A DNA stretch of 64,000 nt, from NCBI RefSeq assembly GCF_004349065.1, contig NZ_SMKZ01000036.1, positions 1 to 64,000 of the forward strand, given 5' to 3'. A program made the position numbers and the translations under genes. The stretch is from Jiangella asiatica. GTDB lineage: Bacteria > Actinomycetota > Actinomycetes > Jiangellales > Jiangellaceae. The number at the start of each line of letters is the position of its first letter. Within the stretch, counting starts at the first letter, position 1. The notes under the pieces were generated by a model that saw only the letters and a list, made by a program, of their open reading frames with translations, was not told the origin of the DNA and ran no database searches. Of the stretch, positions 1 through 62,005 are shown piece by piece.

Positions 1-4
1 GGAG

Positions 5-1069
5 ATGGGTATAAGAGACACCACCCGAACGTCCCCACGTGCCCGCGCCCGCCCGACCCGGGGCGGGGCCGCCCTCCTCCTGGCCGGCGTGCTCGCCGCC
101 GCCGTCGTCGGCTGCGGCTCGGACGACGACGGCGGTTCAGACGGCGACGCGGACCCGGCCGCGGCCAGCGGCGACCCCTCGTCCGGCGCGCTGACCGAAC
201 CGGTCACCGTCGACAACTGCGGCGTCGAGGTCAGCGTCGACGCCCCGCCGGAGCGCGTGGTGACCATCAAGTCGACCTCGACGGAGATGATGCTCGCGCT
301 CGGCCTGGGCGACCTGCTGGTCGGAACGGCCTTCGCCGACGGCCCCCTGCCCGACGAGTACGCCGGCCAGCTCGACGCCGTCCCCGTGCTCTCGGACAAC
401 GTGCCCGGTCAGGAGGCGCTGCTCGACGTCGAACCGGACTTCGTCTACGGCGGCTGGGAGAGCAACTTCGCCGCCGACACCGCGGGCGAGCGTTCCTCGC
501 TGGCCGACTTCGGCATCGACACCTACGTGTCGCCGGCGGCCTGCCAGGACCCGGCCTACCAGCCGGACCCGATGACGTTCGACGAGCTGTTCGCCGAGAT
601 CCACGAGGTCGCGTCCTTCTTCGACGCCGAGGACCGGGCCCAGGACCTGGTCGCGGAGCAGCAGGCGCTGCTGGACCAGGTGGCCGAGCCCGGTGCCGGG
701 CTCACCGCGTTCTGGTTCAGCTCCGGGGAGGATGCGCCGTTCGTCGGCGGCGACATCGGTGCACCGGCGATGATCATGCGCGAGCTCGGCCTGGAGAACA
801 TCTTCGCCGACGTCGACGCGACCTGGTCCAACGTCAGCTGGGAGCAGGTCATCGACCGCGACCCCGACGTCATCGTCCTGGTCGACGCGGCCTGGAACAC
901 CGCGGACGACAAGATCGAGCGCCTGGAGAGCAACCCCGCCACCGCGGCACTGCCGGCCGTCGCCGAGCAGCGGTACCTGCGCCTGCCGTTCGCGGCCTCC
1001 GAGGCCGGGGTCCGCAACGCCCAGGCCGTCGTCGACCTGGCCGCCCAGCTGGCCGAGCTGGGGCTGTGA
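5..1069 (+). CDS. Substrate-binding lipoprotein of a BtuF/FepB-type ABC importer, probably the F420-0 cassette
   Basis: Solute-binding component of a cluster-A importer, tethered outside the membrane. A hydrophobic segment ends in VVGC, giving a lipobox with Cys37, followed by an acidic Gly/Ser/Asp linker and a periplasmic-binding fold of about 290 residues. The phrases NCGVEVSV, PPERVVTIKS and LVDAAWNT resemble, from memory, the actinobacterial family annotated as putative F420-0 transporter binding protein; a heme, cobalamin or siderophore ligand cannot be excluded. The stop overlaps the start region of the permease gene, so the three genes form one operon. The ATG lies directly behind GGAG at the window edge, too close for a normal ribosome binding site, so the true start may be upstream, outside the window. 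Confidence 0.85.
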   Translation: MGIRDTTRTSPRARARPTRGGAALLLAGVLAAAVVGCGSDDDGGSDGDADPAAASGDPSSGALTEPVTVDNCGVEVSVDAPPERVVTIKSTSTEMMLALGLGDLLVGTAFADGPLPDEYAGQLDAVPVLSDNVPGQEALLDVEPDFVYGGWESNFAADTAGERSSLADFGIDTYVSPAACQDPAYQPDPMTFDELFAEIHEVASFFDAEDRAQDLVAEQQALLDQVAEPGAGLTAFWFSSGEDAPFVGGDIGAPAMIMRELGLENIFADVDATWSNVSWEQVIDRDPDVIVLVDAAWNTADDKIERLESNPATAALPAVAEQRYLRLPFAASEAGVRNAQAVVDLAAQLAELGL

Positions 1070-18590: not shown

Positions 18591-21500
18591 GGGCGACGCG
18601 GGGCGGACGGGGGTCGGTGACGTGCGGTCGGTCGTGCTGCCGTCGCCGAGCTGACCGCGGTCGTTCGCGCCCCAGCAGGACAGCGCACCGGTCACGCTCA
18701 CCGCACAGCTCTGGAACTGCCGGCTCGCCAGCGCCGCCACGGCACCGAACGGTTCGCCGTCCGCCGCAAGCACGGTGCCGGCGACGTCGCGGTCCGCGGT
18801 GCGGCCGTCGCCGAGCTGGCCGCTCTCGTTGAGGCCCCAGCAGGTGGCGCCGGCGGCGGCCGTGACGGCGCACGAGTGCAGCCCGCCGACGCCCAGGCCG
18901 GCGATACCGGCGAGCGGCTCGCCGGTGGCACCGTCGACCACCGGAAGCGGCACCGAGCTGTTGGCCGGCGCGGCGGCGTTGCCGAGCTGCCCGTACGCGT
19001 TCTGGCCCCAGCAATGCGCGGTGGCGTCGGCGAGGACGGCGCAGGTGTGCACGTTGCCGGCGCCGATCTCGGCGATGCCGGTCAGCGGCTCGCCCGAGGC
19101 GCCGGCGACGACGGCGGAGGGCAGCGTGGTGGGCCCGGGGTTGGCCCGGCCGATGCCGAGCTGACCGGCGACGTTCCAGCCCCAGCAGTACGCCGCGCCG
19201 CCCTCGACCACCGCACACGTGTGGTAGCTGCCCGCGCTGAGCTGGGTCAGCCCGGAGAACGGGCGACTGGTGTCGGCGGGGTCGACGACGGCGGCGGGCA
19301 CGGTTCGCTGCCCGATGGACCCGGTGCCCAGCGCGCCCCAGTAGTTGTAGCCCCAGCAGCGGGCGGTGCCGTCGCTCAGCAGGGCACAGGTGTGCGTGCT
19401 ACCGGCCACGATGTCGACGACGCCGGTCAGCGGGGCCCCGCCGGCCTCGGAGGCCACCACGGTGCGCGGCTGGGCGGAGCTGACCTCGTCGCCGGTGCCG
19501 AGCCGGCCCGCGCCGTTGAAGCCCCAGCACGACACCGTCGTGTCGACGTGCAGGGCGCAGGTGTGCTCGGAACCGGCGGCAAGGTCGGTCACGTCGGTGA
19601 GCACCCGGACCGGCACAACGGTGGGCTCTTCGCCGGACGTGCCGGTGCCGAGCTGACCGGAGAGGTTGTGGCCCCAGCAGTACGCCGTGCCGCCCTCGAC
19701 CAGCGCACAGGTGTGCTCCTCGCCCATCGCGATGTTCTCCACGCCCAGCACGTCCAGCGGCAGCTCGGCCGTCGCGGTGGAGCCGCGGGCATCGGTGACC
19801 GTGACGGCGACCGTCGCCGGTGCGGCGTCGGTGACGGCCGGCGCCGCCGCGTCGGTGCCGATCAGGCCCGACGACGGGGTCAGTGTCAGGCCGGGCGGCA
19901 GGCCGGTCGCGGCCCAGGTGTACGGCGCCTCGCCGCCGGAGGCGCGCAGGGTGGCGCCGTAGGCCTCCAGCACGTTCAGCGGCGGCAGCGCGGTGGTGGT
20001 GACGGCGAGCCGGCCCGGCTTCGGGTCGATCTCGATCTCGACTGGGTCGGCGCAGGTGTCGGTGCCGGCCACGCAGAGCCGGTACTCGAACGTCGTCACC
20101 GCACGGACCCGGCCCAGCTCATCGGTGTACGCACCATCGTTGGCCGTGGTGGCCAGCAGCTCCCCGTCGCGGTAGACGTCGAGCTCGTCGCCGGGTGCGC
20201 CGGCCCACGTCAGGTGCGTCCGGTAGTAGAACGGCCGGACCCGTTCCGCCTCGACCGCCAGCTCGAACGCGGCCGGCTCGGCCACCGTCAGCGTCGCCGG
20301 CACGGCCACCAGCGGCCGTACGGGGTCGTCAGTCTCCACGCACAGCGTCGCGGCGTGCTCTCCCGCCGGCAGCCCGGCGGCGTCGTAGCCGATCGTCACC
20401 TCGCTGGTCGCGCCCGGCGCCGTAGTACCGGCGGCGGGCGTGGCCGACAGCCACTCCGGCAGCGTGCACACCGGCCGCTCGCCGCCGGTGACCGCGAGCA
20501 CCAGGTGCATGTCCGGCGAGCCGAGCTCGGCCACGGGCGTCGGCTCCGGGGTGTCGCACCCGGCCGCGGCCGCGTACGTCGGCGCGGTCTCGCCGGCGGC
20601 GTTGGAGCCGGGGTAGAACGCGCCGGTACCGGACAACGTCGGTGCCACGATCTCGACGACCAGGGTGGAGCCGGCCGGCGCCCAACCGGTCACCGGCACG
20701 CTCACCATGGTGAACGCCTGGAACTCAAGCTCCTGGGTGGCGGTGCCGATTCGGGTCAGGTTGGCGTAGGTCAGCTCGCCGTCCAGCGTGTAGAGGTTCA
20801 CCGTGATCGGCGCGGTGGTGTTGAGCCGCTGCACGCCGAAGGTCACCTCGGAGACGTCGAAGTCGTCGACGATGCCGAAGTCGGCCAGCGTGAACGTGCG
20901 CAGGTACGCGGTCTCGTCGGTGGTCCCGAGCGGGCCGCTGCAGGCGAGGCTGTGGTCGCGGACGATCTCGGTGGACGCGGAATGGGTCAGCGTCACCTGG
21001 TCGCCTGGCGCCGCGAACGGCTCGGCCGGCGCGGCCGCGTCGCCGCCGCCGGCCTCGGTGTCGGTGCCGAAGCCGGTCGGGCTGTCGGTGCCGGCGACGG
21101 TGTCCGGGACGGTCGCCGGTCCGGCCGGGTGCAGCACGGAGCCCGTGCCGGCGGCCGCCGCGCCGTCGGTGCCCAGGACGCTCCAGGTCAGCGGCGCCTC
21201 GCCGGTGTTGCCGATGGCGACGGTGTCGGTGCCGGTCTCCCCCGCCACGACCTCGGCGCTGAGCGCGTCCGGCGTCACGTCCGCGGCCGGGACCGGCGGG
21301 GTGCCGGTGCCGGTGAGGGTCAGCGGCAGCCAGTCGGTGCGCGCGTCGCTGGTGACGGTGACCGTGCCGGTCGCGCGGCCGTCGACGGACGGGGCGAACG
21401 TGTAGTCCAGCGTGCAGCTGGCGCCGGGTGCCAGCGTGAACGGTGCCGCGCCGCAGGTACCGCCCGCGGCTTCGAACGGCGCGTCCGGCGCGGTCACGGA

Positions 21501-23936
21501 CGCGACGGCGATGTCGTCGTCGCCGGCGTTGGTCAGCGTCACGCGGGTCGGTTCCGTGCTCGCACCGATGGTGACGGTGCCGAACTCCACCTCGGCCGGC
21601 GTCGCCACCAGGTCCAGCGGACCGTAGGACGCCAGGTTCCAGGCCGGCAGGCCGCCGCTGGTGCTGAACGACCCGCCCACCGTCAGCTCGTCGCCGCGGG
21701 CCAGCAACGCGGACACCGCGCCGTCGGTACCGTTGCCGGCCGGCCCGGTCAACGCGGACCAGGCGGTGCCGTCCCAGCGCGCGACCCGGTCGGCACGCAC
21801 CCGGCCGGCCTCGACGAAGGAGCCGGCCGCGATGAGGTCGCCCTGGAACTCGATGAGCTCGGTGGCGGAGTTGTTCAGGCCGAGGTCGAGCGGCGACCAC
21901 GCTTCGCCGTCCCAGCGGGCGATCCGGTCAACCCGCTCGCCGCCGGCCTCGAGGAAGCCGCCGGACGCGATGATGTCGCCGTCGTACACGGCCAGTGCGT
22001 CGACCTGGCTGCTCGTACCGGCGCCCAGCGGCGACCAGGCGGCGCCGTCCCAGCGCGCGACCTTGTTGACCTCGACACCACCGGCCTGCGAGAACGCGCC
22101 GCCGACCACGAGGTCGCCGTCGTGGACGGTGAGCGCACGCACGCGGTCGTCAACGCCGTCGCCCAGCGGGGTCCAGGTCTCGCCGTCCCAGGACGCGATG
22201 CGGTTCGCCGGCACGCCGCCGGCCTCGGTGAAGGAGCCGCCCGCGACCAGGTCGCCGTCGAGCACCGCCAGGGCACGGACCTCGCGGTCGACGCCGCCGC
22301 CCAGCGACGACCACGTGCTGCCGTTCCAGCTGGCGAGGTTGCGGACCCCGGCGTCGCCGGCCCGGCTGAAGTTGCCGGCGGCCACGAGGACGCCGTCGTG
22401 GACGAGGAGGTCGTTGACGGCGAACCCGTCGATGCCGCCGCCCAGCGGCGCCCAGGTGGTGCCGTCCCAGCGGGCGATCATGCTCGCGACGGCGTCGCCG
22501 GCCGCGCCGAACGACCCGGCCGCCACGATGTCGCCGTCGTACTCGACCAGGTCGTGGATGACCGGGCCGCCGCCGCTCAGGCCGGTGGACCCGAGGCCGG
22601 CGAGCGCCGTCCAGGCCGCCCCGTCCCAGGACGCGAGGTTGTTCGCGACCGTCCCGCCGGCGGTGTCGAACCCGCCGACCACCACGAGCCGTCCGTCGTA
22701 GGACACGAGGCCGTTGACGGCCGCGCTGAACTCCGCGGCCACACCGGTGCCGCCGGCCCCCGCCAGCGGCGCCCAGGCGGCGCCGTCCCAGTGGGCGACC
22801 CGGTTGACCTGGGTACCGCCGCTGGTTCCGAAGGTGCCGCCGGCGTAGAGCGCGCCGTCCACCACGGTCAGCGTGTTCGCCGCGTTGTCGAAGCCGGCGC
22901 CCAGCGGGGACCACGTCGTGCCGTCCCACCGCACGACGTTGCCGGCCGCGACCGTCCCCATGCCGGAGAAGAACCCGCCGGCCACGAGGTCGCCGTCGAG
23001 CACGGCGAAGGACATGACGCTCGGGATGCCGAAGCCGGTCAGGCCGGTCCCGGCACCGGCCGGAGCGGTCCACTGCAGGCCGTCCCAGCGGGCGATGCCG
23101 TTGATCTGCGTCTCGCCGGCCTCGGTGAAGCGCCCGCCGACCATGAGGTCGCCGTCGTACACCGCCAGCGCCGTGACGGCGGCCGCGGACGGGACGTTCA
23201 GGTGCCGCACACCGGGGCGGGTCTCGCCCTGCAGGGGCGACCAGCCGGTGCCGTCCCAACGGGCGACGTGATTGACGGGGACTCCGCCGGCGTGGCTGAA
23301 CGAGCCGCCGACCAGCAGCGCGCCGTCGTAGACCGTCATCGCCAGCACGGCCGGCTCGCGCTCGTGCGAGACGCCGGCGCCGGCCGGGCCGTCCAGCGGT
23401 GACCACCTGATGCCGTCCCAGCGGGCGATCTGGTTGACCCGCACGCCGCCGGCCCGGCTGAACGAGCCGCCGACGATCAGGTCGCCGTCGTACACCGCGA
23501 GCGAGTAGACCGAGCCGCTGACACCGACGCCGTCCGGCCCGGCCAGCGGCGTCCAGCTGGTGCCGTCCCAGCGGGCGATCTGGTTGACCACCTGCGAGCC
23601 GGCCGTGCGGAACAGGCCGCCGACATACAGGGCCGGGCCGGTGCCGTCGTCCCAGACCGTCGCCGCGGTGACGGTGCCGTCCAGGCCCGGGCCGAAGAAG
23701 GCCGCGTCCCAGCCGAGGACCGAGCCGCCGACGGGGTCCGCGACGCCGTCGGCGGCCGGATCGGCGGCCGGGTCAGCGGTGAGCGCTTCCGGCCCGGGCG
23801 GTTCGACGACCCCCACCGCCGGCCCGGGGGACAACGCGAGCACGGACATCATCGCGAGTGCCACCAGCGCCAGCACTCCTCCGCGCCGCGTTCGAGCCAA
23901 GCGGTAGGGATCGTCCATCAGCACAGGGTGCTGCAT
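18582..23936 (-). CDS. Giant secreted propeller protein with 13 WDG repeats and 7 RCC1 repeats
   Basis: A 1784-residue exported protein of unknown function. In order: a signal peptide or anchor to about residue 42; 13 repeats of about 50 residues built on A-R-W-D-G-x-x-W with a VYDGDLIVGGSF strand (about 100-770), which should form beta-propellers; an immunoglobulin-like choice-of-anchor domain (about 775-880); a 165-residue module also present in the S8 protease (about 982-1148); a BACON-like and an Fn3-like domain; a putative Ig domain; and seven RCC1 repeats with E/S-HTCAL and CWG-N-GQLG motifs (about 1400-1780) making one more propeller. RCC1 cysteines recur twice per repeat and may pair outside the cell. 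No catalytic motif and no LPxTG anchor. The start has no clear ribosome site; a second ATG at 23918 is possible. It lies 31 bases downstream of a LuxR regulator gene. Confidence 0.85.
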   Translation of the reverse strand: MQHPVLMDDPYRLARTRRGGVLALVALAMMSVLALSPGPAVGVVEPPGPEALTADPAADPAADGVADPVGGSVLGWDAAFFGPGLDGTVTAATVWDDGTGPALYVGGLFRTAGSQVVNQIARWDGTSWTPLAGPDGVGVSGSVYSLAVYDGDLIVGGSFSRAGGVRVNQIARWDGIRWSPLDGPAGAGVSHEREPAVLAMTVYDGALLVGGSFSHAGGVPVNHVARWDGTGWSPLQGETRPGVRHLNVPSAAAVTALAVYDGDLMVGGRFTEAGETQINGIARWDGLQWTAPAGAGTGLTGFGIPSVMSFAVLDGDLVAGGFFSGMGTVAAGNVVRWDGTTWSPLGAGFDNAANTLTVVDGALYAGGTFGTSGGTQVNRVAHWDGAAWAPLAGAGGTGVAAEFSAAVNGLVSYDGRLVVVGGFDTAGGTVANNLASWDGAAWTALAGLGSTGLSGGGPVIHDLVEYDGDIVAAGSFGAAGDAVASMIARWDGTTWAPLGGGIDGFAVNDLLVHDGVLVAAGNFSRAGDAGVRNLASWNGSTWSSLGGGVDREVRALAVLDGDLVAGGSFTEAGGVPANRIASWDGETWTPLGDGVDDRVRALTVHDGDLVVGGAFSQAGGVEVNKVARWDGAAWSPLGAGTSSQVDALAVYDGDIIASGGFLEAGGERVDRIARWDGEAWSPLDLGLNNSATELIEFQGDLIAAGSFVEAGRVRADRVARWDGTAWSALTGPAGNGTDGAVSALLARGDELTVGGSFSTSGGLPAWNLASYGPLDLVATPAEVEFGTVTIGASTEPTRVTLTNAGDDDIAVASVTAPDAPFEAAGGTCGAAPFTLAPGASCTLDYTFAPSVDGRATGTVTVTSDARTDWLPLTLTGTGTPPVPAADVTPDALSAEVVAGETGTDTVAIGNTGEAPLTWSVLGTDGAAAAGTGSVLHPAGPATVPDTVAGTDSPTGFGTDTEAGGGDAAAPAEPFAAPGDQVTLTHSASTEIVRDHSLACSGPLGTTDETAYLRTFTLADFGIVDDFDVSEVTFGVQRLNTTAPITVNLYTLDGELTYANLTRIGTATQELEFQAFTMVSVPVTGWAPAGSTLVVEIVAPTLSGTGAFYPGSNAAGETAPTYAAAAGCDTPEPTPVAELGSPDMHLVLAVTGGERPVCTLPEWLSATPAAGTTAPGATSEVTIGYDAAGLPAGEHAATLCVETDDPVRPLVAVPATLTVAEPAAFELAVEAERVRPFYYRTHLTWAGAPGDELDVYRDGELLATTANDGAYTDELGRVRAVTTFEYRLCVAGTDTCADPVEIEIDPKPGRLAVTTTALPPLNVLEAYGATLRASGGEAPYTWAATGLPPGLTLTPSSGLIGTDAAAPAVTDAAPATVAVTVTDARGSTATAELPLDVLGVENIAMGEEHTCALVEGGTAYCWGHNLSGQLGTGTSGEEPTVVPVRVLTDVTDLAAGSEHTCALHVDTTVSCWGFNGAGRLGTGDEVSSAQPRTVVASEAGGAPLTGVVDIVAGSTHTCALLSDGTARCWGYNYWGALGTGSIGQRTVPAAVVDPADTSRPFSGLTQLSAGSYHTCAVVEGGAAYCWGWNVAGQLGIGRANPGPTTLPSAVVAGASGEPLTGIAEIGAGNVHTCAVLADATAHCWGQNAYGQLGNAAAPANSSVPLPVVDGATGEPLAGIAGLGVGGLHSCAVTAAAGATCWGLNESGQLGDGRTADRDVAGTVLAADGEPFGAVAALASRQFQSCAVSVTGALSCWGANDRGQLGDGSTTDRTSPTPVRPASPGE

Positions 23937-23967: not shown

Positions 23968-26874
23968 TCAATTTTGCTGGCCGCCCGTCTCGACCTGGCC
24001 GGCCTCGTCGCGCAGCCGGTGGATGATCGCCACCCTGGACGTGACGCCGAGCTTGCGCATGGCCGCGGTGATGTGCCGGGCCACGGTGTTGACCGAGAGG
24101 TACAGGTCGGCCGCGATCTCCTTGTTGGTGCGCCCGGCCGCGGCGAGCTCGGCCACCTCGCGCTCGCGCGGCGACAGCTCCGCGCCGTAGCTCGGCCGGC
24201 CGCCGCGGTGGTGCACCGGGACGGTGACACCGTGCTGCCGGGCCGCCTGCGCCACCCGGCCGGCGTCCCAGGACGCGCCCAGCTCGCGGAACCCGGCCAG
24301 CGCCGCCCGCAGCGCCCCGCCGGCGTCGTCGGCCCGGTCGGCCTCCAGCAGCGCCAGGCCGGCCCGCTCCCGCGCCTGCGCCGCCTCGTACGGGCAGCTC
24401 AGCGCGGCGTAGTGGTCGGCGGCCACGGTCAGCTCGCGCGCCGCCGACGCGGGGTCGCCGGCTTGGAGGATCCCGCGAGCGTGATGGAACGCAGGCACCG
24501 CCAGCGGGGTGTCCAGCCCGGCCACCGCGGCCTCGTACCGGTCGACGACGATGGCCGCCTCGGCCCCGCGCCCGGCGGCCACAAGTGCCTCGACCGCGGC
24601 GGGCAAGGCACGCACGCCCGCCGCCCAGACGCCCTTCGGTTCGACGACGGCGAGCAGCCGGTCCGCGGTGGCCGCCGCGAGCGCGACGTCGTCGCGGGCC
24701 AGGGCCAGCCGGATCAGCGCCGTCACCGGCAGCGGGAGGACGTCGAACCCGCCGAGCTCCTCGATCTGGTCGACCAGGTCGCCCAGCAGCCGGTGCGCCT
24801 CGTCCAGCTCACCGCGGGCCAGCGCCAGCACCGCCGGGACGACCTGGACGTCGATGCTCGCCCGCGGGTGGCCGGCCAGTTCGTCGATGAGCACGCCGAC
24901 CTCGTCGCCCAGGCCGGTCCAGGAGCCGCGGCACAGGTCGAGCAGGGCGAGGGCCGAGCGCAGGCTGAGCGCCAGCCGCGCGCTCTCGCTGGCGTCGGCG
25001 ACCCGCCGCCCGGTGGTGAGCAGCCGGTCGGCCACGTCGTAGTGGCCGGCGAAGCAGGCCTCGGCTCCGACCGACCAGTAGGCGTTCACCTCGCGCCGGT
25101 GCCGAGGCTGGCCGCCGGTGCGTGCCTCGATCCGGGCCAGCAGCTCGCGCCAGACCGGGTCGCCGATGGGCACGAGCACCATGGCGATCTTGCCGAGCAG
25201 GAACACCTCGAACGGCGGGTCGCCGACGTCGGGGATGACCTCGAGCGCCCGCATCAGCCACGGCCGGTACTCCGCGAGCGCGACGTCCGGCGTCACCGGG
25301 ATGCCGAGCATGACCATGGCCCAGGCCTTGAGATCGGGCCGGTCGTCCAGCTCGTCGACGGCGGCCGCGAACAGCCGGGCTGCCCGCTTGGGATCGTCGC
25401 CGGCCTCGTGGAGCACCAGCCCGAGCCGGAACCGCAGCTCGCCGCGGACCTCCGGCGCCAGGTCGAGGTCGAGCACGGCGCCGACGAGGTCGACGACCTC
25501 CCCGGCTCGCAGCGCCTCGATGGCCGACCGGGCCAGCGTCACCGCCAGCGGCCCGGCCTGCTCCGGCGTGAGCGGCGCGTGTCGCAGCACCGCCTCCAGC
25601 AGCCGCACCGCCTCGGCGTCGTTGCCCAGCCCGATGGCCTGGTCGGCCGCCCGACCGGCCGCGACCGCCCACTCCTCCAGCCGGCCGGCGTAGCGCAGGT
25701 GGTGGGCGACCTGTCCGAGCGGGACCGGGGTGTTCACCCGCAGCGCGTCAGCAGCCCGGCCGTGCAGCTCACCGCGGCGCGGCTGCGGGATCGCCTCGTA
25801 CACCGCCTGCGCGGCCAGCAGGTGCCGGAAGCCGTAGTCGCCGCGCTGCGCGGCCAGCACCCCGGCGCTCAGCGCCTCCTCCAGCGCCCGGTTGCCCTGC
25901 TCACCTGTCCAGCCGGCGGTGGCGAACAGCACCCCGTGTGCCACCGGCACCTGCAGGACGGCCGCGACCTCCACCAGCGTGCGCGCCGGCGTGGTCAGCC
26001 CGCTGACCCGCTCCAGGACGGAGTCGCGGATGCCGGCCGGCACGTCCAGCTCGTCCAGGGCGCGGCGGGCCCAGCCGCTGCCCCGCCGGATCAGGGTGCC
26101 GCGCGCCCGCATCAGCGCCAGCAGCTCCTCGATGGCGAAAGGCAGCCCGGACGTGCGTTCGCGCAGGTAGCCGGCGAACTCATCGGACACCCGGTTGAGG
26201 TCCATGATGGCCGCGGCCAGCTCGCCGGTGCGCTCGCGGTCCAGCGGAGCGAGCACGATCTCGGCCCGGCCGGTGGCCGCCGGCAGCGCCGCGGTCAGCG
26301 CCCGGATGCCCGGCTCGACCTCCTCGCCGCGGAACGTCAGCACCAGCGACAGCTTCGGCGGCGGCTCGGCCAGCAGGTAGCGGACGAAGTCGGCGGTCTG
26401 CTCGTCGGCCCAGTGGAGGTCTTCGAGCACCAGCACCGCCGGGCTCAGCGACTCCAGCAGCCCGACCAGCCCGCGGAACATGCGGTGCCGCTCGGCCGCG
26501 CGGTCGTCCAACGGCTCCGGCGCCGGCGGCAGCAGGTCGGCCAGCTCGGGCAGCAGCGGCCGCAGCGCCCCGGCCACCGGCGACAACGTCACCGCGGCCA
26601 GCGCCTCGCCCACGCCGCGCAGGGCTTCGATGACCGGGCCGAGGGGGAAGGACTCGCGGATGCGGTGGCAGCGCCCCACCAGCAGCCGCTGGTCGGCGAC
26701 CTCGGGCCGGGCGGCCAGCTCGGTGACCAGACGGGTCTTGCCGATGCCCGCCTCGCCGTCGACCACCACCACCGACGGCGGCGACGACACCACGGCGGCT
26801 AGGCGCTCCAGCTCGGCGGAGCGGCCCACCAGCGTGGGCGAGACCACCCGCCTGCCGTCCGTGCTCGTGCTCAC
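23968..26874 (-). CDS. Large AAA/TPR LuxR-family transcriptional regulator
   Basis: A 968-residue regulator of the LAL/MalT-like class. The N-terminal STAND ATPase has Walker A DGEAGIGKTRLV and Walker B LVLEDLHWADEQT. The long middle region is helical with TPR-like repeats, and the C-terminal 65 residues are a LuxR helix-turn-helix (LSPREREVAELAAAGRTNKEI through ADLYLSVNTVARHI). Such proteins bind DNA after the sensor part recognises a ligand. The GTG at 26874 is preferred because GAGGTG lies six bases upstream; a GTG three codons earlier is possible. It is transcribed toward the giant propeller gene with 31 bases between, so it may share or control that transcript. The gap contains a small GACTAT/ATAGTC hairpin. 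Confidence 0.9.
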   Translation of the reverse strand: MSTSTDGRRVVSPTLVGRSAELERLAAVVSSPPSVVVVDGEAGIGKTRLVTELAARPEVADQRLLVGRCHRIRESFPLGPVIEALRGVGEALAAVTLSPVAGALRPLLPELADLLPPAPEPLDDRAAERHRMFRGLVGLLESLSPAVLVLEDLHWADEQTADFVRYLLAEPPPKLSLVLTFRGEEVEPGIRALTAALPAATGRAEIVLAPLDRERTGELAAAIMDLNRVSDEFAGYLRERTSGLPFAIEELLALMRARGTLIRRGSGWARRALDELDVPAGIRDSVLERVSGLTTPARTLVEVAAVLQVPVAHGVLFATAGWTGEQGNRALEEALSAGVLAAQRGDYGFRHLLAAQAVYEAIPQPRRGELHGRAADALRVNTPVPLGQVAHHLRYAGRLEEWAVAAGRAADQAIGLGNDAEAVRLLEAVLRHAPLTPEQAGPLAVTLARSAIEALRAGEVVDLVGAVLDLDLAPEVRGELRFRLGLVLHEAGDDPKRAARLFAAAVDELDDRPDLKAWAMVMLGIPVTPDVALAEYRPWLMRALEVIPDVGDPPFEVFLLGKIAMVLVPIGDPVWRELLARIEARTGGQPRHRREVNAYWSVGAEACFAGHYDVADRLLTTGRRVADASESARLALSLRSALALLDLCRGSWTGLGDEVGVLIDELAGHPRASIDVQVVPAVLALARGELDEAHRLLGDLVDQIEELGGFDVLPLPVTALIRLALARDDVALAAATADRLLAVVEPKGVWAAGVRALPAAVEALVAAGRGAEAAIVVDRYEAAVAGLDTPLAVPAFHHARGILQAGDPASAARELTVAADHYAALSCPYEAAQARERAGLALLEADRADDAGGALRAALAGFRELGASWDAGRVAQAARQHGVTVPVHHRGGRPSYGAELSPREREVAELAAAGRTNKEIAADLYLSVNTVARHITAAMRKLGVTSRVAIIHRLRDEAGQVETGGQQN

Positions 26875-26970
26875 CGGCGCCACCTCGACGGCAGTGTAGC
26901 CCGCTGGTCACCGCCGTGCCGCGGTCTCATCGCGCCGGCCGGCGTGGACGGCCAGCGGACCAGGAGACGC

Positions 26971-27169: not shown

Positions 27170-30100
27170 TCAACGCGGGTGGTCCAGCTGACCGACCCCC
27201 ACACGTACCTCCGCGGAGCACCAGGCCGCGGGCCCAGCGGGCGCACTGGCCGGCTCGGCCGCACTGGCCGCGCCAGCTGCGTCGTCGGGTGAGACACAGA
27301 CCTGGTACGTGTGGACCGTCCCCGGCCGGGGCCGGCCGAGCTGATCGGTGTACGTGCCGTCGTTGTCCGTCGTTGCGAGTAGGTGACCATCGCGTCGAAC
27401 CTCCACTTCCTGCGATGTCGGCCCGGACCACTGGAGAACGGCGTCGTACCCGGTCCGGACCCTGGAGACGTCCGCGCTGAGCGTGACGTCGGCGGCCTCC
27501 TCCACCGTCAGGGTCACCGGGACGGTGACCCGCGGGGAGGCAGGATCGTTGCTGTTCACGCACAGCTGGGCGGTGTAGGCACCGGCGGCCAGGCCAGTGG
27601 CGTCCACGGTGACCGTCGCCGTGCCGGTGCTGCCGGCCACTGCGGTGCCGGCGTCCGGCGTGACGTCGAGCCACGCGATGTCCTCGGGGGTGTCGCACGC
27701 CGGCGCCGGGGTGGCCGTGCCGGTGACCGTGAACGGCAGGCCCAGCGCAGTCCCGGTGCCGGCGTCCACGACGGCCAGCCAGGTGCCGGAGGCGCCGAGC
27801 TGGCGGCCGTCGCCGGTCACCCGCTCGCCGGGGACGGTGACCGGCGGCTGCCACGGCCCAGTGCCGGAGTCCGCGGCGAACTGCCAGTCCAGCCAGTAGG
27901 TGCCCGGCTCCAGGTGGACCCCGGCCGCCGCCGTCACCGTCATGACCGGCCGCGCGGTGTCGAGGTTGGTCTCCGACACCCGGTAGGCGCCGGACCACGC
28001 GGTGTCGCTGCGCCGGTCGGTGGTGGTGTCGCCGAATACGACCTCGCTGCCGGGCGCGCCGGGCTCACCGTCCCAGATCCGCAGCGTCACCCCGTCGATG
28101 GTCGAGTCCGTCGACGACCCGGTCTGGTACGCGAGGAACGTGACGGCCTCGACGTCCCAGCCGTACGGGTCGGTGACGGTGAAGTCGTCGGCCAGGCGGT
28201 TGCCCGCGGACGCGCCGCCGTTGACGCCGAGCGTCGTCATGCCCAGCGTGACGTTCTGCATCACGCTGCGGTCCGAGCCGTCCGGTCCGGCCGCCGGGTG
28301 GGTGACGACCGGCCCGTTGTCGTACAGCGCTCCGTCCGCGGCCGTGGCGCTGTTCGCCGCCGGTGCGCCGGCCGCCGTCTCGATCGACCACTCCAGCAGG
28401 CCGTCGCCGACGTTGGCGATGGCGAGCTCGTGCTCGGTGATGGTGTCCGTCGGCTGCGCGACGTCGAGCGCCTGCGGAGCCACGTCGATGGCGGGGATCT
28501 CCTCGACGACCAGCCGCACCGGAACCGGGCGCAGCGGCCGGACGGCGTCGTTGCTGCGCAGGCAGAGCGTGGCGTCGTGAGTGCCGGCGGACATCCCGGC
28601 GGAGTCGAGCACCACCTCGACCTGCTGCTCGCCGCCGGGCCCGACGGTGCCCGACAGTGGCCGCACCTGCGCCCACGGCGTCTGCGCGGGAAGGTCGCAC
28701 GCGGGGGTGTCGGCCTCGCCGATGACGTTCATGACGATGTGCATGCCGTCGCGGCCGATCTCGGCGACGTCGGTGGGCTCGGTCAGACCGCAGCCCGGCG
28801 CGGCGATGTAGGACGGTGCGCTCTGCCCCGCGCCGTTGGCGCCGATGAAGAACGCGCCGGCGCCGGCCGCGTCGGGCGCCGCGACCTCGACCACCAGCGT
28901 CGCGCCGTCCGGCACCATGCCGGTGACCGGGACCTCGACCATGGTCAGGCTCTGCGGCTCCACCTCGATGCTGGCCGTGCCGATAGGGGTGAGGTTGGCG
29001 TACGTCAGCGGCTGCGCGTCCAGCGTGTACAGGTTGACGTCCATGGTCTGCGGCGACCCGGCGACGGCTTCGACGCCGAACGACACCGCGGTCACGCCGA
29101 ACTCGCCGGTGATACCGAACTCGCGCGGGGTGAACGTGCGCAGGTAGGAGTTCGCGACGGTGCTCTGGCCGTCGTCGGGGCTGCAGGCCGCGGAGGCTCC
29201 CGGCTGGATTCCCTGCGACGCGGAGTGGGTCAGCGTGGTCGTGTACTGGTCCGCCTGCGACGTCGACTCCGGGACGACGACGGCGCCCGGCTCGCCGCGG
29301 GTGCTGAGCTGGGCCGAGCCGTCACCGGTCGACGACGTGCGCGCGGTGGCGTCCTCGGCCGTCGCGATCGGGGCCGTCTCGACGACGGGCGTGCGCGGGC
29401 CCGCCTCGTCGGTCACGCTCCAGGTCAGGTCCGCGTTTCCGGTATTGCCGATGCTGAGCATGTGCGACGTGGTCTCGTCCGGCCCTTGGGTCGACGCGAC
29501 CTCTCCGGGGTCCAGCGTCATCGACGGCGCCGCCGCCTCCGGCACGACGACCACCGGGTAGTGGGTGCCGGCCACCGCAGCACCGTCGGGGTGCGTGGCC
29601 GTCGTCTCCAGCCCGACGTCGCCGAACACCCGCTCGCCCTCCGGCAGGCCACTTACGTCGGCGGTGACGACCAGCTCTTGGGTCGCGCCCGGTGCCAGGG
29701 TGAACGTCTCCGGCGAGACCGTGACGGTCATGCCGGGCGGAGCCTCGATTACCGCGGTGTAGCTGGCCTCGACATCGGCGGCGTTGCGTACGCTGCGGGT
29801 CCAGTCGCAGGTCTCGACGCAGCCGTTGCTGACCAGGGCCGGCAGGTTCAAGGTCTTGGGGTCGCCGCCGATGGCCGGGTCCGCGGCGGCGAAGTTCGCG
29901 TGGGTCTCGTCCATGACCAGCCCGACCCGCCCGGCTTGCTCCAGGTCCAGCCGGCCCGAGCCCATCGCCATCGGGGTCGCGGCGGTCCGGCCGTCCTCGG
30001 CCAGCACGCTGTCGTCGTCGGCGGTCGACGCCAGGGCGGACCGGATCTCGGCCGGCGACCAGTCCGGGTGCAGCGCGGTCAGCAGCGCCCCCGCGCCGGC

Positions 30101-55146: not shown

Positions 55147-56277
55147 ATGGACAACCCGCAGCACATCGAGACGATCGTCGTCGGCGGCGGCCAGGCAGGG
55201 CTCTGCGTGGGCTATCACCTGGCGCGGCTCGGCCGGCCGTTCGTGATCCTCGACGAGCAGCGCCGCACCGGCGACAACTGGCGCCGGCACTGGGACTCCC
55301 TGCGGCTCTACACCCCGGCACGCTACGACGGGCTGCCGGGGATGCCGTTCCCCGGACCGCGGTCGGCGTTCCCGACGAAGGACCAGGTGGCCGACTACCT
55401 GGAAGCCTACGCGGCCCGATTCGACCTGCCGATCCGTCACGGTGTCAAGGTACGGGAAGTCACCGCGAACGGCCGCGGATACGTCGTCGACGGCGGGGAC
55501 CAGCGGTTCGAGGCGGACAACGTGGTGGTCGCCACCGGCACGTTCGGCACGCGGAGGTACGTGCCTCCGTTCGCCGCCGAGCTGGACCCGTCCATCGACC
55601 AGCTGCACTCCAGCGAGTATCACCGCCTGTCGCAGCTGCAGCCGGGAGCCGTGCTCGTCGTCGGCGCGTCGCACTCCGGGGCGGACATCGCGTTCGAGGC
55701 CGCCCGCGAGCACCACACGGTCCTGTGCGGCCGCCCGACCGGGCAGATCCCGGTCCCGCTGGAGTCGCGCCGGGCCCGCGCCGTCTTCCCGGTGCTCTGG
55801 TTCCTTGCCCGGCACGTGTTCATGCTGCGCACGCCGATCGGGCGGAAGATGCGTCCGGAGATCCGGACGCACGGCGGGCCGCTGCTGCGGATCCAGGCGT
55901 CCGATCTCGCCGCGGTCGGCGTCGAGCGCGTCACCGAGCGGGTCGGCGGCGTGCGCGACGGGCGGCCGATGCTCGACGGCGGCCGAGTGCTCGATGTCGC
56001 GACGGTCGTCTGGTGCACCGGATTCCGGCAGGACCTCAGCTGGATCCGGCTGCCGGTGCTCGACGACGACGGCTGGCCGATCGAGCAGCGCGGCGTCGTG
56101 CCGTCCGCACCCGGCCTCTACTTCACCGGGCTGGCGTTCCAGCGGTCATTCAGCTCCATGCTGGTCGGTGGCGCCGGGACGGACGCGAAACACATCGCAT
56201 CTCACATCGCCGACCACCGGGCCGCCGACGGTGTCACGGCTGCTCGAGCACGGCGACCGTCCGAGCAGGCACGCTGA
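55147..56277 (+). CDS. FAD-dependent monooxygenase (flavin-containing / CzcO-like)
   Basis: A 376-residue flavoprotein. The FAD Rossmann motif VVGGGQAGLCVGYHL is at residues 11-25, the NAD(P) motif LVVGASHSGADIAFEA in the middle, and VWCTGFRQDLSWI plus GLYFTGLAFQRSF near the end bind FAD. It resembles the CzcO family of trunk monooxygenases; the substrate is unknown. GGGGAGG lies five bases before the ATG. The 3' end overlaps the convergent pullulanase gene by 44 bases, so the last 14 codons are read in both directions. Confidence 0.87.
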   Translation: MDNPQHIETIVVGGGQAGLCVGYHLARLGRPFVILDEQRRTGDNWRRHWDSLRLYTPARYDGLPGMPFPGPRSAFPTKDQVADYLEAYAARFDLPIRHGVKVREVTANGRGYVVDGGDQRFEADNVVVATGTFGTRRYVPPFAAELDPSIDQLHSSEYHRLSQLQPGAVLVVGASHSGADIAFEAAREHHTVLCGRPTGQIPVPLESRRARAVFPVLWFLARHVFMLRTPIGRKMRPEIRTHGGPLLRIQASDLAAVGVERVTERVGGVRDGRPMLDGGRVLDVATVVWCTGFRQDLSWIRLPVLDDDGWPIEQRGVVPSAPGLYFTGLAFQRSFSSMLVGGAGTDAKHIASHIADHRAADGVTAARARRPSEQAR

Positions 56278-59200
56278 TCCCGGTGTCGGTCACGGCCGTC
56301 GAGCGGACGACGGGGTCCGTGCCGGCCGCCTGGACCGGGTGCAGCCGCAGGCCGGCCGCGTCGTCGACCGGGACGGTGACCTCCGACGGCGTCGCGTTGA
56401 ACACGACGACGATGCGCTCGCGGTCCGGGTCGAGGTCGGTGCCGGCGCGATCGTCGATCTCCATCACGATGACCCCCGGCGCCTGGGACGGTCCGCCGTC
56501 GCCGAACGACACCCGATCCTCGACCAGCGACGCCGACCCGAGCCGGAACAGCGGCGAGGAGAATCGCAGCCGGAGCAGGTCCTGCGCCATCGCCGTCGAC
56601 ATCGTCATGGCGCCGGGCCCGGGCTTCAACGCCGGCGACCCGAGCAGCGGCCGCATGAAGTCCCACTTCGCCTCGTTGTCCGTCGCCGGAGGCAGCCCTG
56701 AGCCGAACGTGCTCTCCTGACCGGTCCAGTCGATCCGGTTGAACCAGTCGCCGGAGTCGTAGGAGTTGCGGTCCAGCGACTTCGAGCGCAGCAGGTCCGC
56801 GCCGGCGTGCCAGAACGACGGGCCCTGGCCGAGCGCCGTCGTCGCCAGCGCCAGGACGTTCATGCGGACCCGGTCGGCCATCGGGGTGTCGGCGGGCAGC
56901 TTGTAGGCCAGCACGTCGTACAGCGTCTCGTTGTCGTGTGCGTCGACGTAGGTGATGACCTCCTCCGGGTCGGCGGTGTAGCCGGCCGACGAGCCGTTGT
57001 AGTCGACGTCGGCGCCGGTCACCGTCGCGCCGGTGCGGTCGACGAACGTGTAGTCGCGCAGGTTGCCGGCGAGCCCGACCTTGATGAGGTCCTGGTGGTG
57101 CAGCAGCCGTTCGCGCTGCTCGTCGGGGGTCCCGTTCACCGGGGCGCCGTTCGGGTCGGTGAACAGGCCGCTGGCGAAGCCCTGCAGCCGCGGGTCCTCG
57201 TCGAACGGGCCGCCGCCACGGACCCCGTCGCGCAGCCGGTCGTTGAACGTGCCGATGCCGGCGCCGAACATCTCCAGCTGGGTGGCCTGCACGAACCGGG
57301 CGTTGTCGGCGACCTCGCCGAAGTTCCAGCCCTCGCCGTATACGTAGATGCTCGACCCGTCCACGCCGTCGGCTTCCGGGGTCAGCTCGTCCAGCGCCGC
57401 GCGCACCCGCTCCATCGTCGCCCGGCTGTGGTGGCCCATCAGGTCGAAGCGGAAACCGTCGACCTTGTAGTCGCGAGCCCAGGTGAGCACCGAGTCCACG
57501 ATCAGCTTCTCCATCATGGCGTGCTCGGACGCGGTGTTGGCGCAGCACGTGGACGTCTCCAGCGCACCGGTCGCGGACAGCCGTTGGTAGTAGCCGGGCA
57601 CGATCCGGTCCAGCACCGACTTCTCGTCCTGGCCGGCGGCGTGGGTGTGGTTGTAGACGACGTCCATGACGACGCGCAGTCCCGTGCCGTTGAGCGCGGC
57701 CACCATCTCGCGGAACTCGCGGGTTCGGGCGGTGCCCTGCGGGTCGGTGGCGTAGGACCCCTCGGGGACCGTGTAGTGCAGCGGGTCGTAGCCCCAGTTG
57801 AACCCGTCCTGCCCAGTCGCGGCCGTGACGCAGTCTTGTTGCGCCTGGCCGGCCGGGTCCGCCGCGGTCAGCCCCGCCAGGTCGCAGTCGGGCACCGCCT
57901 GGTCGGCGCGGACCTCCGGGATGGTCGCGATGTCGAACACCGGCAGTAGGTGGACGGTGTTGAGTCCGGCGCCGGCCAGCGCGGACAGGTGCCGCATGCC
58001 GGAGCCCTCGGCATGCGTGAAGGCCCGGTACGTGCCGCGGTCGGCGGCCGGCACGGTCTCGTCGTCGACGGAGAAGTCGCGCAGGTGGAACTCGTAGATG
58101 GTCGTGTCCTCGGGCTGCGGCAGCTCGGGCTTGTCCAGGTCGTCCCAGCCGGTGGGCTTCAGCGCCGCGTCGGACAGGTCGACCACGAGCGACCGCCGCG
58201 AGTTCGTCGTCAGTGCGACGCTGTACGGGTCGGTGACGACGTTCGTCTCGACGGCGTCGGTTTCCGGCACGTACACCTGGACCGCGAACGCGTAGGACGC
58301 GCCCCGCCAGCGCGGGTTGCCGCGGGCGACCCAGACGCCGTCGCGGTCGCGGCGCATCGGCACAGTGGTCTCGGTGCTCGATCCCGGCAGCGTCAGCATT
58401 AGGTCGACGTGCTTGGACGTCGGCGCCCAGACCGCGATGTCCGGCCGCCGCCCCTGCCAGACGACGCCGAGCTCACGGTCGGCCGCGCCCGCGTAGACGT
58501 CGTCGAGCACACCGGGGAGCTGGACCCCCGTGGCGTCGACCAGCCGACCGAGGTCGTCGTAGGCGGCGACCGCGAGCTGGCCGGTGAGCAGGTCCTCAGC
58601 CTGGGCCGCGTCGCGGGACACGAGCCGCAGCGCGCCGTACGAGGCCAGGTGCGGGTACTTCTCGCGGACGGCGTCCGGCAGGCCGTCGCCGTCCAGCGTC
58701 AGCGGGTACGACGTCGCGCCGGTGACCGCCTCCGCGTCCAGTCCGAGCCCGCCGGCCGGGGCCGCGTGCAGCCGGAAGCTCCAGCCCGCGGCCGCCTCCG
58801 GCAGGTCCCACGCGAGCAGCCCGCGCTCCAGCCAGTGCGCCTTCTGCCGGGTCAGGTCGGCCTGCGAGGTTGCCGCCGACGACGTCACCGTCAGCACATG
58901 GGTGGCGACGTCGTAGCTCATCGTGGTGCGCGCCCCGGCCGGCACGGTGAACGCGATGTTCGACCCGTCCGCGGCGCCGCCGGCTCCGTAGTTCTCGTCC
59001 CAGGTCAACCCGTGCGTGACCTTGGCCTCGTACGACCCGGCGGCGATGCCCGTCGTGGTGAGCGTGTAGACGCCGTCGCCGTCGGGATCCTTCAGCCAGG
59101 ACCGCATGCACGACGGGTCCCAGTCGTCCGGGCAGCCCAGCTCGGACTGGAACGAACCGGGCACGGTGACGACCGGGTCCTGGGCGTCGCTGGTGATCCA

Positions 59201-62005
59201 GTGAGTACCGTGGTCGTAGTAGAACGTGACGTCGGTCGGCGCGGCCAGCGGCAGCGGGATGTTGGGCCCGTCGCGGCGGGCGCCGGCACCATAGTTCTCC
59301 GCCCACGAGCCGTCGATGGCGGCCTTGTACTCGAACTCGCCGGCCGGCAGCGTGAACGTCCCCTTCCAGACGTCGTCCTTCGTGTCGAGGGTCAACCCGG
59401 CCTGGACGCACGTTGGGTCCCAGTCGCCGGCACAGCCGATCTCGCTGTTGAGGCTGCCCGGGACGGTGACCCGGTCCGGCTGCTCGACCGGGCCGCCGCC
59501 GCCCGGCTCCTCGCCCTCGTCCACCGGGTCGCCGACCACGCCGTACGTCGACGCCACCGAGAGGTTGCCGGAGTGGTCCTTCAGCACTGCCCGGTACTCG
59601 ACCAGCGTGCCGTGCGCGAGGTCCGTGACGTCGTGGAAGACGCGGTACGGGGCGTTGTCGTCGGTGCCGATGACCTGCCACTCGGAAGTCCCGAGCGGGC
59701 GCCAGGCCAGCGTGACCTGGTTGAACCCGCCGTCCGGCACCGAGACCCCCACCTCGGCGCGGCCGCCGACGGTGCCACCGGGGCCGGGGGCGCGGAAGTG
59801 CGTCGCGGGCGCGTCCTTCGACTCCCTCAGCGGCTTCGACGCCTCCCAGACGACGGCGCTGAGCGGCGGGACGGTGACGGTGACACGTCCCTCGGCGTCG
59901 GAGCGGACGGCCTCGGTGTCGGCGGGCCAGACCGGGCCGAACGTGGTGCGTGCGTTGAAGGTGTCGAAGCTCGCGGTCCGTGCCTCGGTCGTGTTGTTGG
60001 CGGCGACGACATACTCGACCTGCTCGTCGGCGTCGATGCGGCTGAACGCGTAGACGCCCGCGTCGTCGCTGGCGTAGCGGTGGATCTGCGCGCCGTCGGC
60101 CAGCGCCGGGTGCTCGTCGCGCAGCGCCGACAGCTCGGCCAGGCGCTGGTAGATCGGGTGCTCAGGGTCGAAGTTCTCCTCAGCCGTGGTGGCGTCGGTG
60201 CCGATGAGGTCGTCGTCGTTGTAGCTGGCGACGGCGCTGGGGAACATGTCCTGGCGGGCGTCCTTGTCGCCGCCGTCGCCGGTGAAGCCCTGCTCGTCGC
60301 CGTAGTACACGACCGGCTGGCCGCGAGTGAAGTACATGAGCTCGTGTGCCAGCAGGTCCCGCTCGAGCTGCTCCTGCGCGGCGACGCCGGTGTCCTGGAC
60401 GAACCTCCCGATGCGGCCCATGTCGTGGTTCCCGAGGAACGTCGGCAACGAGTACGCGTTGGAGTCCGCGTCGGTGTAGTAGTCGTCGCCGGCGAACAGG
60501 TCACGCAGCTCCGTCGTGGGCCGGCCGGTCGCGAAGCCCTGCGCCCGGGCCTGGAAGCCGAAGTCGATGGTGGCCTGCAGCCCGCCCTCGGTCGTGTAGC
60601 GCGACATCGCCGCCGGGTTGGCGTCGAAGACCTCGCCGAACATGAAGAAGTCGTCGGCGCCGGAACCGTGCGCGGCGTCCAGCACCTCGGGCGCGAACTT
60701 CTGCCAGAACTCCATGTTGACGTGCTTGACGGTGTCGATGCGGAAGCCGTCGACGCCGAACGCTGCCCAGAACCGGTAGACGTCGATCATCCCGTCCCGC
60801 ACCGCCGGCTGCTCGGTGAACAGGTCGTCCAGGCCGACGAAGTCGCCGTACAGGTCGCCCTCGGTGCCGTCAAAGGCCGCGTTGCCGCGGTTGTGGTAGA
60901 GCGTGGGATCGTTCAGCCAGGCCGGGACCTTGACGGTGGCGTCCTCGGGCGTGCGGAAGAACGGCGTGTACGGGAACGACGTCCGCGGGTCCAGTGGCGG
61001 GAAGGTCTCGCCGGCGGCGTACTGGCTGTCGTCGAAGACGTTGCCGGCCGCGTCGACGTAGGGGACGTCCCCCGTGGGGATGTAGGTGTACGCGCCCTCT
61101 TCGTAGTCGATGACGTCGGCGGTGTGGTTCGTGATGATGTCGAAGAAGACCTTGATCCCCCGGGCATGTGCCTCGTCGATCAGTTGGCGCAGCTCCTCGT
61201 TCGTGCCCAGGTGCGGGTCGATCTGGGTGAAGTCGGTGATCCAGTAGCCGTGGTACCCGGCGCTGACGTCGGCGCCGCTCCCCTGCACGGGGCGGTTCTT
61301 GAACGACGGCGTCATCCAGATCGAGGTGACACCCATGTCCTCGATGTAGTCGAGCCTCCGCAGGATGCCGGCGATGTCGCCGCCGTGGTAGAAGCCCTTG
61401 TCAGCCGGGTCGTAGCCGTGGGTCAGCCGGGGCTCTTCGGTGCCGGGCGGTACCGCGTGGCCGCCGGTGTCGTTCGACGGGTCGCCGTTGTCGAACCGGT
61501 CGGCCATCACGAAGTAGAAACGCTCGTCGGTGAGGTCGTCGCGCAGGCTGGTGCCGGCCAGCTCGCGGTCGGGCTCGGTGAGGCCGGGCTGCTCCTGGGT
61601 CGGCGCGACGGCGATCCGGTGCGTCGCGTGGTCGTAGGAGAACGTCACGTCGGCGTCCTCGGCCAGCACCAGCGGGAGGTTCGGCCCGTTCGCGACACCG
61701 TCCGCGCCGTAGTTCTCGTCCCACCCACCGTTCAGCGCGACCTTGAACTCGTAGCTGCCGGCCGGGAGGGTGACGCTGATCGCGTACACGCCGTCGGCGG
61801 TAGCCGTCAGACGGGTCTGCGCGCAGGCCGGATCCCAGTCGCCGCCGCAGCCCAGCTCGCTCTGCAAGCTGCCCGCCAGCGTGACGCTGCTGGGCGCCGG
61901 CGTGTGATCGGCCGCGGCCGGTGTCGTCGCCGCGGCGACCGCCGTGACGAGCAGCCCGAGCGCGGCGAGTGGGGCGACGAAGCGGCGCGGAGTCGAGGTC
62001 GGCAT
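56234..62005 (-). CDS. Secreted alpha-amylase / type I pullulanase fusion with three X25 domains
   Basis: A 1923-residue exported enzyme for starch and branched glucan breakdown. In order: a signal peptide (about 1-32); an X25 domain ([21 protein letters not shown]); a GH13 alpha-amylase (about 150-720) with catalytic residues in [19 protein letters not shown] and GNHDMGR; an Fn3-like segment; two more X25 domains (about 845-1050); and a GH13 pullulanase with [34 protein letters not shown] and [10 protein letters not shown], then a C-terminal beta domain. The amylase would cut alpha-1,4 bonds and the pullulanase alpha-1,6 branches. TGGGAG lies close upstream of the ATG. A CTTGCAGCAAG operator upstream suggests LacI-type maltose control. 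Confidence 0.93.

Follow-up and report, generated by a model that had tools for sequence, protein, structure and literature searches.

BACON domains are regarded as spacers, and BACON_2 is already known from Actinomycetota (PMC11216935). We searched the literature for an inserted BACON domain and found no description of one, and BACON goes unmentioned in the main text of a survey that covered 48,551 domain insertions (PMC13114784). For the lectin-like domain of the secreted protease Cwp84, its authors allow another function (PMC4089489). Here, we describe a module, M1, that is nested in BACON domains of two proteins of Jiangella asiatica. The window analysed is the 64,000-nucleotide stretch formed by positions 1–64,000 (forward strand) of contig NZ_SMKZ01000036.1 (GCF_004349065.1), from an actinobacterial genome of 7.03 Mb in 134 contigs.

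Both proteins are of the secreted type and are presumably exported (Table 1). The domains recognised in P0001 are propeller repeats (DUF5122/Rax2-like), a choice-of-anchor D domain, a BACON domain carrying M1, an Ig/fn3-like tail and RCC1 repeats. P0002 contains an S8 subtilase (with I9 propeptide, PA insert and fn3_6), a first BACON domain carrying M1 (slot 1), a second carrying a different guest, M2 (slot 2), and an Ig/fn3-like tail. The subtilase was assigned by profile match (PF00082, E 3.4e-40), and the catalytic Asp, His and Ser motifs (VIDSGIN, DGHGSHTA and GTSMSSPHAAG) are all present in the translation. The two genes are separated by a 971-aa ORF (23968–26883, minus strand) that by eye resembles a LuxR-type regulator bearing an ATPase domain; it shares its strand with both, and the three are possibly co-regulated. 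ARAGORN called a tRNA-Asp at 21478–21567 (plus strand), antisense within the coding sequence of P0001; this call lies inside coding DNA and is probably a false positive. A 1,923-aa protein (56234–62005, minus strand) appears by eye to hold two glycosidase units, one alpha-amylase-like and one pullulanase-like, in a single chain.

Table 1. Coordinates of the two genes and of the domains associated with M1 and M2 in the window
Feature	Position	Strand	Protein residues	Remarks
P0001	18582..23936	-		1784 aa; long open frame, Pfam/NCBIfam domain matches
N-terminal half of BACON host, copy A	21162..21299	-	P0001 880-925	joined halves, BACON_2 profile 4-84
M1 copy A	20484..20996	-	P0001 ~981-1151	guest within BACON_2-type domain
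C-terminal half of BACON host, copy A	20271..20474	-	P0001 1155-1222	BACON_2 profile 42-84
Ig/fn3-like tail domain, P0001	20013..20267	-		after BACON host; alignment to P0002 and relatives' proteases
P0002	27170..31915	-		1581 aa; long open frame, Pfam domain matches
N-terminal half of BACON slot 1	29399..29530	-	P0002 796-839	BACON_2 profile 2-41; model residues 1-37
M1 copy B	28715..29239	-	P0002 ~893-1067	guest within BACON slot 1 of S8 protease
C-terminal half of BACON slot 1	28490..28705	-	P0002 1071-1142	BACON_2 profile 43-86
N-terminal half of BACON slot 2	28367..28495	-	P0002 1141-1183	joined halves, BACON_2 profile 2-85
Guest M2	27704..28366	-	P0002 1184-1404	~220 aa, same loop of BACON slot 2
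C-terminal half of BACON slot 2	27488..27703	-	P0002 1405-1476	
Ig/fn3-like tail domain, P0002	27173..27487	-		C terminus of P0002

The original prediction held that both proteins share a module of ~165 residues, and this is borne out: the two copies (171–175 aa) are 55% identical, their Smith-Waterman score of 428 far exceeds the highest value from 500 shuffles (69), and the motifs that had been listed, from LTHSAS to MH-V, are present in each. Exactly two copies, A and B, occur in the 7.03 Mb genome. The two proteins had been described as otherwise different; they are less independent than this implies, as a longer cassette is common to both, consisting of a BACON half, a linker, M1, the other BACON half and the Ig/fn3-like tail. 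The BLASTP match between P0001 and P0002 (E 6e-61, 46% over 341 aa) spans M1 and its flanks. The earlier view that the module corresponds to no named domain also stands. No Pfam-A family matches the query copy, and the best hit of all 15 M1 members at E≤10, Neopullulanase-like_C, is insignificant (E 0.058); the 15 members have no NCBIfam match, and a 15-row M1 profile retrieved nothing from PDB sequences at E≤10. As judged from these searches, M1 is a new sequence family without a name, on known folds, and not a new kind of system. The 15-row alignment has 25 invariant columns, including C19, C150, R34, E118, N135, Y144 and H167, and hydrophobic residues, Gly, Pro and Cys predominate at its most conserved positions.

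The module had also been placed ahead of a BACON-like domain. Instead, one half of a BACON domain precedes M1 and the other half follows it, and the best explanation is that M1 interrupts a single BACON domain between positions 41 and 42 of BACON_2 (PF19190). When matched alone, the host halves cover complementary, non-overlapping parts of the profile (2–41 or 42–86). Once joined, they give a single alignment in P0001 (4–84, 30.1 bits), in P0002 slot 1 (2–86, 29.8 bits) and slot 2 (2–85, 31.6 bits), and in one Isoptericola host (2–85, 31.4 bits), all above the gathering cut-off of 25 bits; a Krasilnikoviella host reaches only 17.5 bits. Halves joined in the wrong order gave 25.4–29.5 bits summed over pieces, only 2–5 bits lower; since these joins also pass 25 bits, the score alone is no proof of nesting, which is founded on the single continuous alignment, the AlphaFold model and a relative with an uninterrupted host. 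In the predicted model of P0002 797–1144, the host strands have pLDDT values of about 70–93, and residues 1–37 and 285–340 are packed together. With the guest skipped, the host model (1..343) aligned by VIA-align to 7n6g_4C (Z 13.8, rmsd 1.6 Å, 100 aligned) and to the BoGH5A BACON domain 3zmr (Z 10.6, rmsd 2.3 Å, 88 aligned); the matched structures are single Ig-like (ASH/PapD/BACON) domains of ~100 residues, and the model is a prediction, not a solved structure. The relative is an S8 orthologue from another genus of the family (L026). It contains an uninterrupted BACON_2 (profile 5–81) where a congener orthologue (L022) has ~215–225 extra residues made up of linker and M1, and the two are 70% identical over the S8 part. 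The flanks could instead be two separate incomplete Ig-like repeats with M1 merely between them, given that the C half alone scores 13–23 bits against BACON_2 and that halves joined in the wrong order come close to this score when their pieces are summed. We consider this very improbable in view of the complementarity of the halves, their union in one modelled domain at Z 13.8 and the contiguous BACON at the same place in L026. The splitting of the domain by the guest explains why annotation by profile search recovers no more than half-BACON fragments from proteins of this kind.

The modelled structure of M1 is all beta save one helix turn, and it is a weak model (pLDDT averaging 62 and falling below 50 at residues 132–167, with a poor C-terminal third; six sequences). 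A Foldseek search matched it to the CBM22 4xup (E 1.8e-4). Structural alignment gave Z 8.6 with the Cwp84 lectin-like domain 4ci7 (rmsd 4.1 Å, 140 aligned, 12% identity), Z 8.4 with the BT0996-C CBM (3.5 Å, 109 aligned), with which other jelly rolls tie, and VIA Z values of 7–8.4 for CBM types, CBM35/6/36 among the matches; as Z 8–9 is common among beta-sandwich models and close to their usual background, these matches make the jelly-roll class likely but single out no family within it. The best matches are mostly beta jelly rolls, and the PDB matches include jelly rolls with non-sugar roles, while Foldseek against BFVD returned generic phage and viral matches only. M1 is likely to be a CBM/lectin-like beta jelly roll, as far as the model goes, and the jelly-roll or lectin-like fold proposed at the outset was recovered, at moderate confidence only. 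The two invariant cysteines, C19 and C150, probably form one disulfide.

Searching with a profile, as originally suggested, did reveal further occurrences, few and patchy. The M1 profile matched 5 of the 11 other sampled genomes of the genus, each with two copies in one S8 protein, and a single genome of a sister genus within the family (L026), with one copy. Four Isoptericola/Krasilnikoviella genomes encode M1 in S8 proteins that also have carboxypeptidase-regulatory-like repeats; the one scan by named genome yielded Promicromonosporaceae only. In a distant actinobacterial order, M1 was found in 2 of 30 genomes (L006/L025/L030), as the N-terminal part of a protein that also has cadherin/Ig domains; in L025 this protein carries three CWB2 repeats, confirmed by Pfam. 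In L025 and L030, M1 is outside any BACON domain, which shows that nesting is not a requirement. When 394 genomes of the class were scanned, positives came from the family of the window alone, and M1 is rare and patchy. The genome searches were centred on members of this phylum; sequences resembling M1 presumably occur in other phyla as well. Three further candidates look like chance matches: L003 (E 0.26), L004 (E 0.64) and L029, a 52-residue match in an unrelated protein. No copy was found by tblastn in phage and plasmid records, and four scans of viral contigs yielded no relatives; there is thus no sign of a phage origin.

Within the protease family, every close orthologue found in congeners carries M1, and a precedent exists (PMC4089489) for a role tied to the activity or specificity of the protease. 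We nevertheless regard such a role as quite unlikely, because M1 also occurs in P0001 and in the L025 protein, neither of which has a protease domain, and within the protease chain it lies a long way from the S8 domain. M1 is absent from five proteins read of another S8 paralogue, present in the same genome and in most congeners; by eye only, the tail of this paralogue looks PPC-, DUF11- and Calx-beta-like. In the S8 orthologues of congeners (L022–L024), an FG-GAP propeller lies between two M1-bearing BACON units. The protease of the window has no propeller, and a different propeller protein nearby, P0001, carries such a unit.

The guest of slot 2, M2 ('...VMQNVTLGMTTLGVNGG...NRLADDFTV...GTYWLDWQ...LPFTVTG'), has no Pfam family and was absent from all 197 other phylum genomes sampled. 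Profile comparison gave no sign that M1 and M2 share an origin (hmmsearch score -0.7, hhalign probability 0.5%). In congeners, the C-terminal BACON domain corresponding to slot 2 holds M1, not M2, and related species have a second copy of the M1-bearing BACON cassette within the protease itself. The tail domain that follows (~85–100 aa; LTWxG...V.RDG.LLATT.NDG.YTDxLGR...Y..CV) is present in P0001, P0002 and the proteases of relatives, and has no Pfam match above cut-off. In the M1 tree, the P0001 copy groups with the C-terminal copies of congeners (support 90/88), and the P0001 host is nearest to slot-2 hosts, with 52% identity to that of P0002 and 46% to that of L022, although the host tree is weak (support 72/71). 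It is plausible that a BACON–M1–tail cassette like the C-terminal one of congeners moved into the propeller protein, the protease slot 2 now having M2. On a more tentative note, to which we would give somewhat less than even credence, actinobacterial BACON_2 may be a general docking frame, in which a fixed loop takes unrelated guests (M1, M2 or none) and secreted proteins exchange these guests among themselves. If so, nature would have a plug-in system for displaying extracellular binding domains.

With regard to function, we consider it probable that M1 is an exchangeable jelly-roll guest in a BACON_2 loop that acts as a sideways, non-catalytic binding module on an extracellular or surface target, most likely a glycan. 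It would form a compact extracellular jelly-roll of ~172 residues (CBM, galactose-binding or lectin-like), likely closed by one disulfide, and would be joined to the BACON_2 loop by a low-complexity N-terminal linker of ~45–55 residues and a short C-terminal linker. The BACON host would be a spacer within a beads-on-a-string C-terminal stalk, from which M1 may jut sideways and tether the S8 protease and, independently of it, the propeller/RCC1 protein to a target outside the cell or on a surface, for which a glycan or glycosylated polymer is the most likely candidate. Such a guest would be exchangeable, orthologous or paralogous BACON slots being empty, occupied by M1 or occupied by the unrelated M2. 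The putative binding role, and with it the putative glycan ligand, is favoured by the jelly-roll matches, the Cwp84 parallel and the use of BACON as a spacer; the N-terminal M1 in a protein with three CWB2 repeats in L025, a surface context, was also counted in its favour. No aromatic binding platform has been demonstrated in M1.

Alternatively, M1 could be purely structural, a beta-sandwich without a ligand of its own that thickens or stabilizes the stalk, and spaces and protects the protease. Its position in a string of Ig-like domains and the mostly hydrophobic, Gly, Pro and Cys character of its top conserved residues fit this, as do the view of BACON itself as a spacer (PMC11216935) and the latitude that the Cwp84 authors leave for the function of its lectin-like domain (PMC4089489). 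We find it unlikely, though less so than a protease-linked role, because another serial Ig repeat would be a simpler spacer, a loop guest adds little length, and the conserved polar residues R34, E118, N135 and H167 would be left unexplained. M1 adds an unnamed extracellular domain family, possibly a new CBM-like or lectin-like one. The arrangement is uncommon: the guest sits within a BACON spacer, and the same or a paralogous slot has empty and different-guest counterparts. It also makes it easy to test whether BACON can accommodate inserted domains.

Among known systems, the host is closest to BACON and BACON_2 (PF13004/PF19190), exemplified by 3zmr: its halves form one BACON_2 alignment, and both are Ig-like spacers in secreted multidomain proteins. 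Unlike the BACON domain of BoGH5A (3zmr), the host described here is broken by a linker and guest of ~220 residues and is not N-terminal. The choice-of-anchor D/ASH domain (NF012200, PF15780), just upstream in P0001, has the same Ig-like fold class as the host, but it is a separate, uninterrupted domain (residues 778–866). M1 resembles CBM6/22/35/36-type modules in its predicted beta jelly-roll and its similar size, and differs from them in sequence, as none of the Pfam CBM families matches it (identity 7–18%). The lectin-like domain of Cwp84 (4ci7) is likewise a beta-sandwich accessory domain of ~170 residues in a secreted protease, one bearing CWB2 repeats; however, Cwp84 is a cysteine protease, not an S8 enzyme, and its lectin-like domain is serial, not nested. 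We therefore take Cwp84 as an instructive parallel, by analogy and with no claim of kinship to the M1 proteins.
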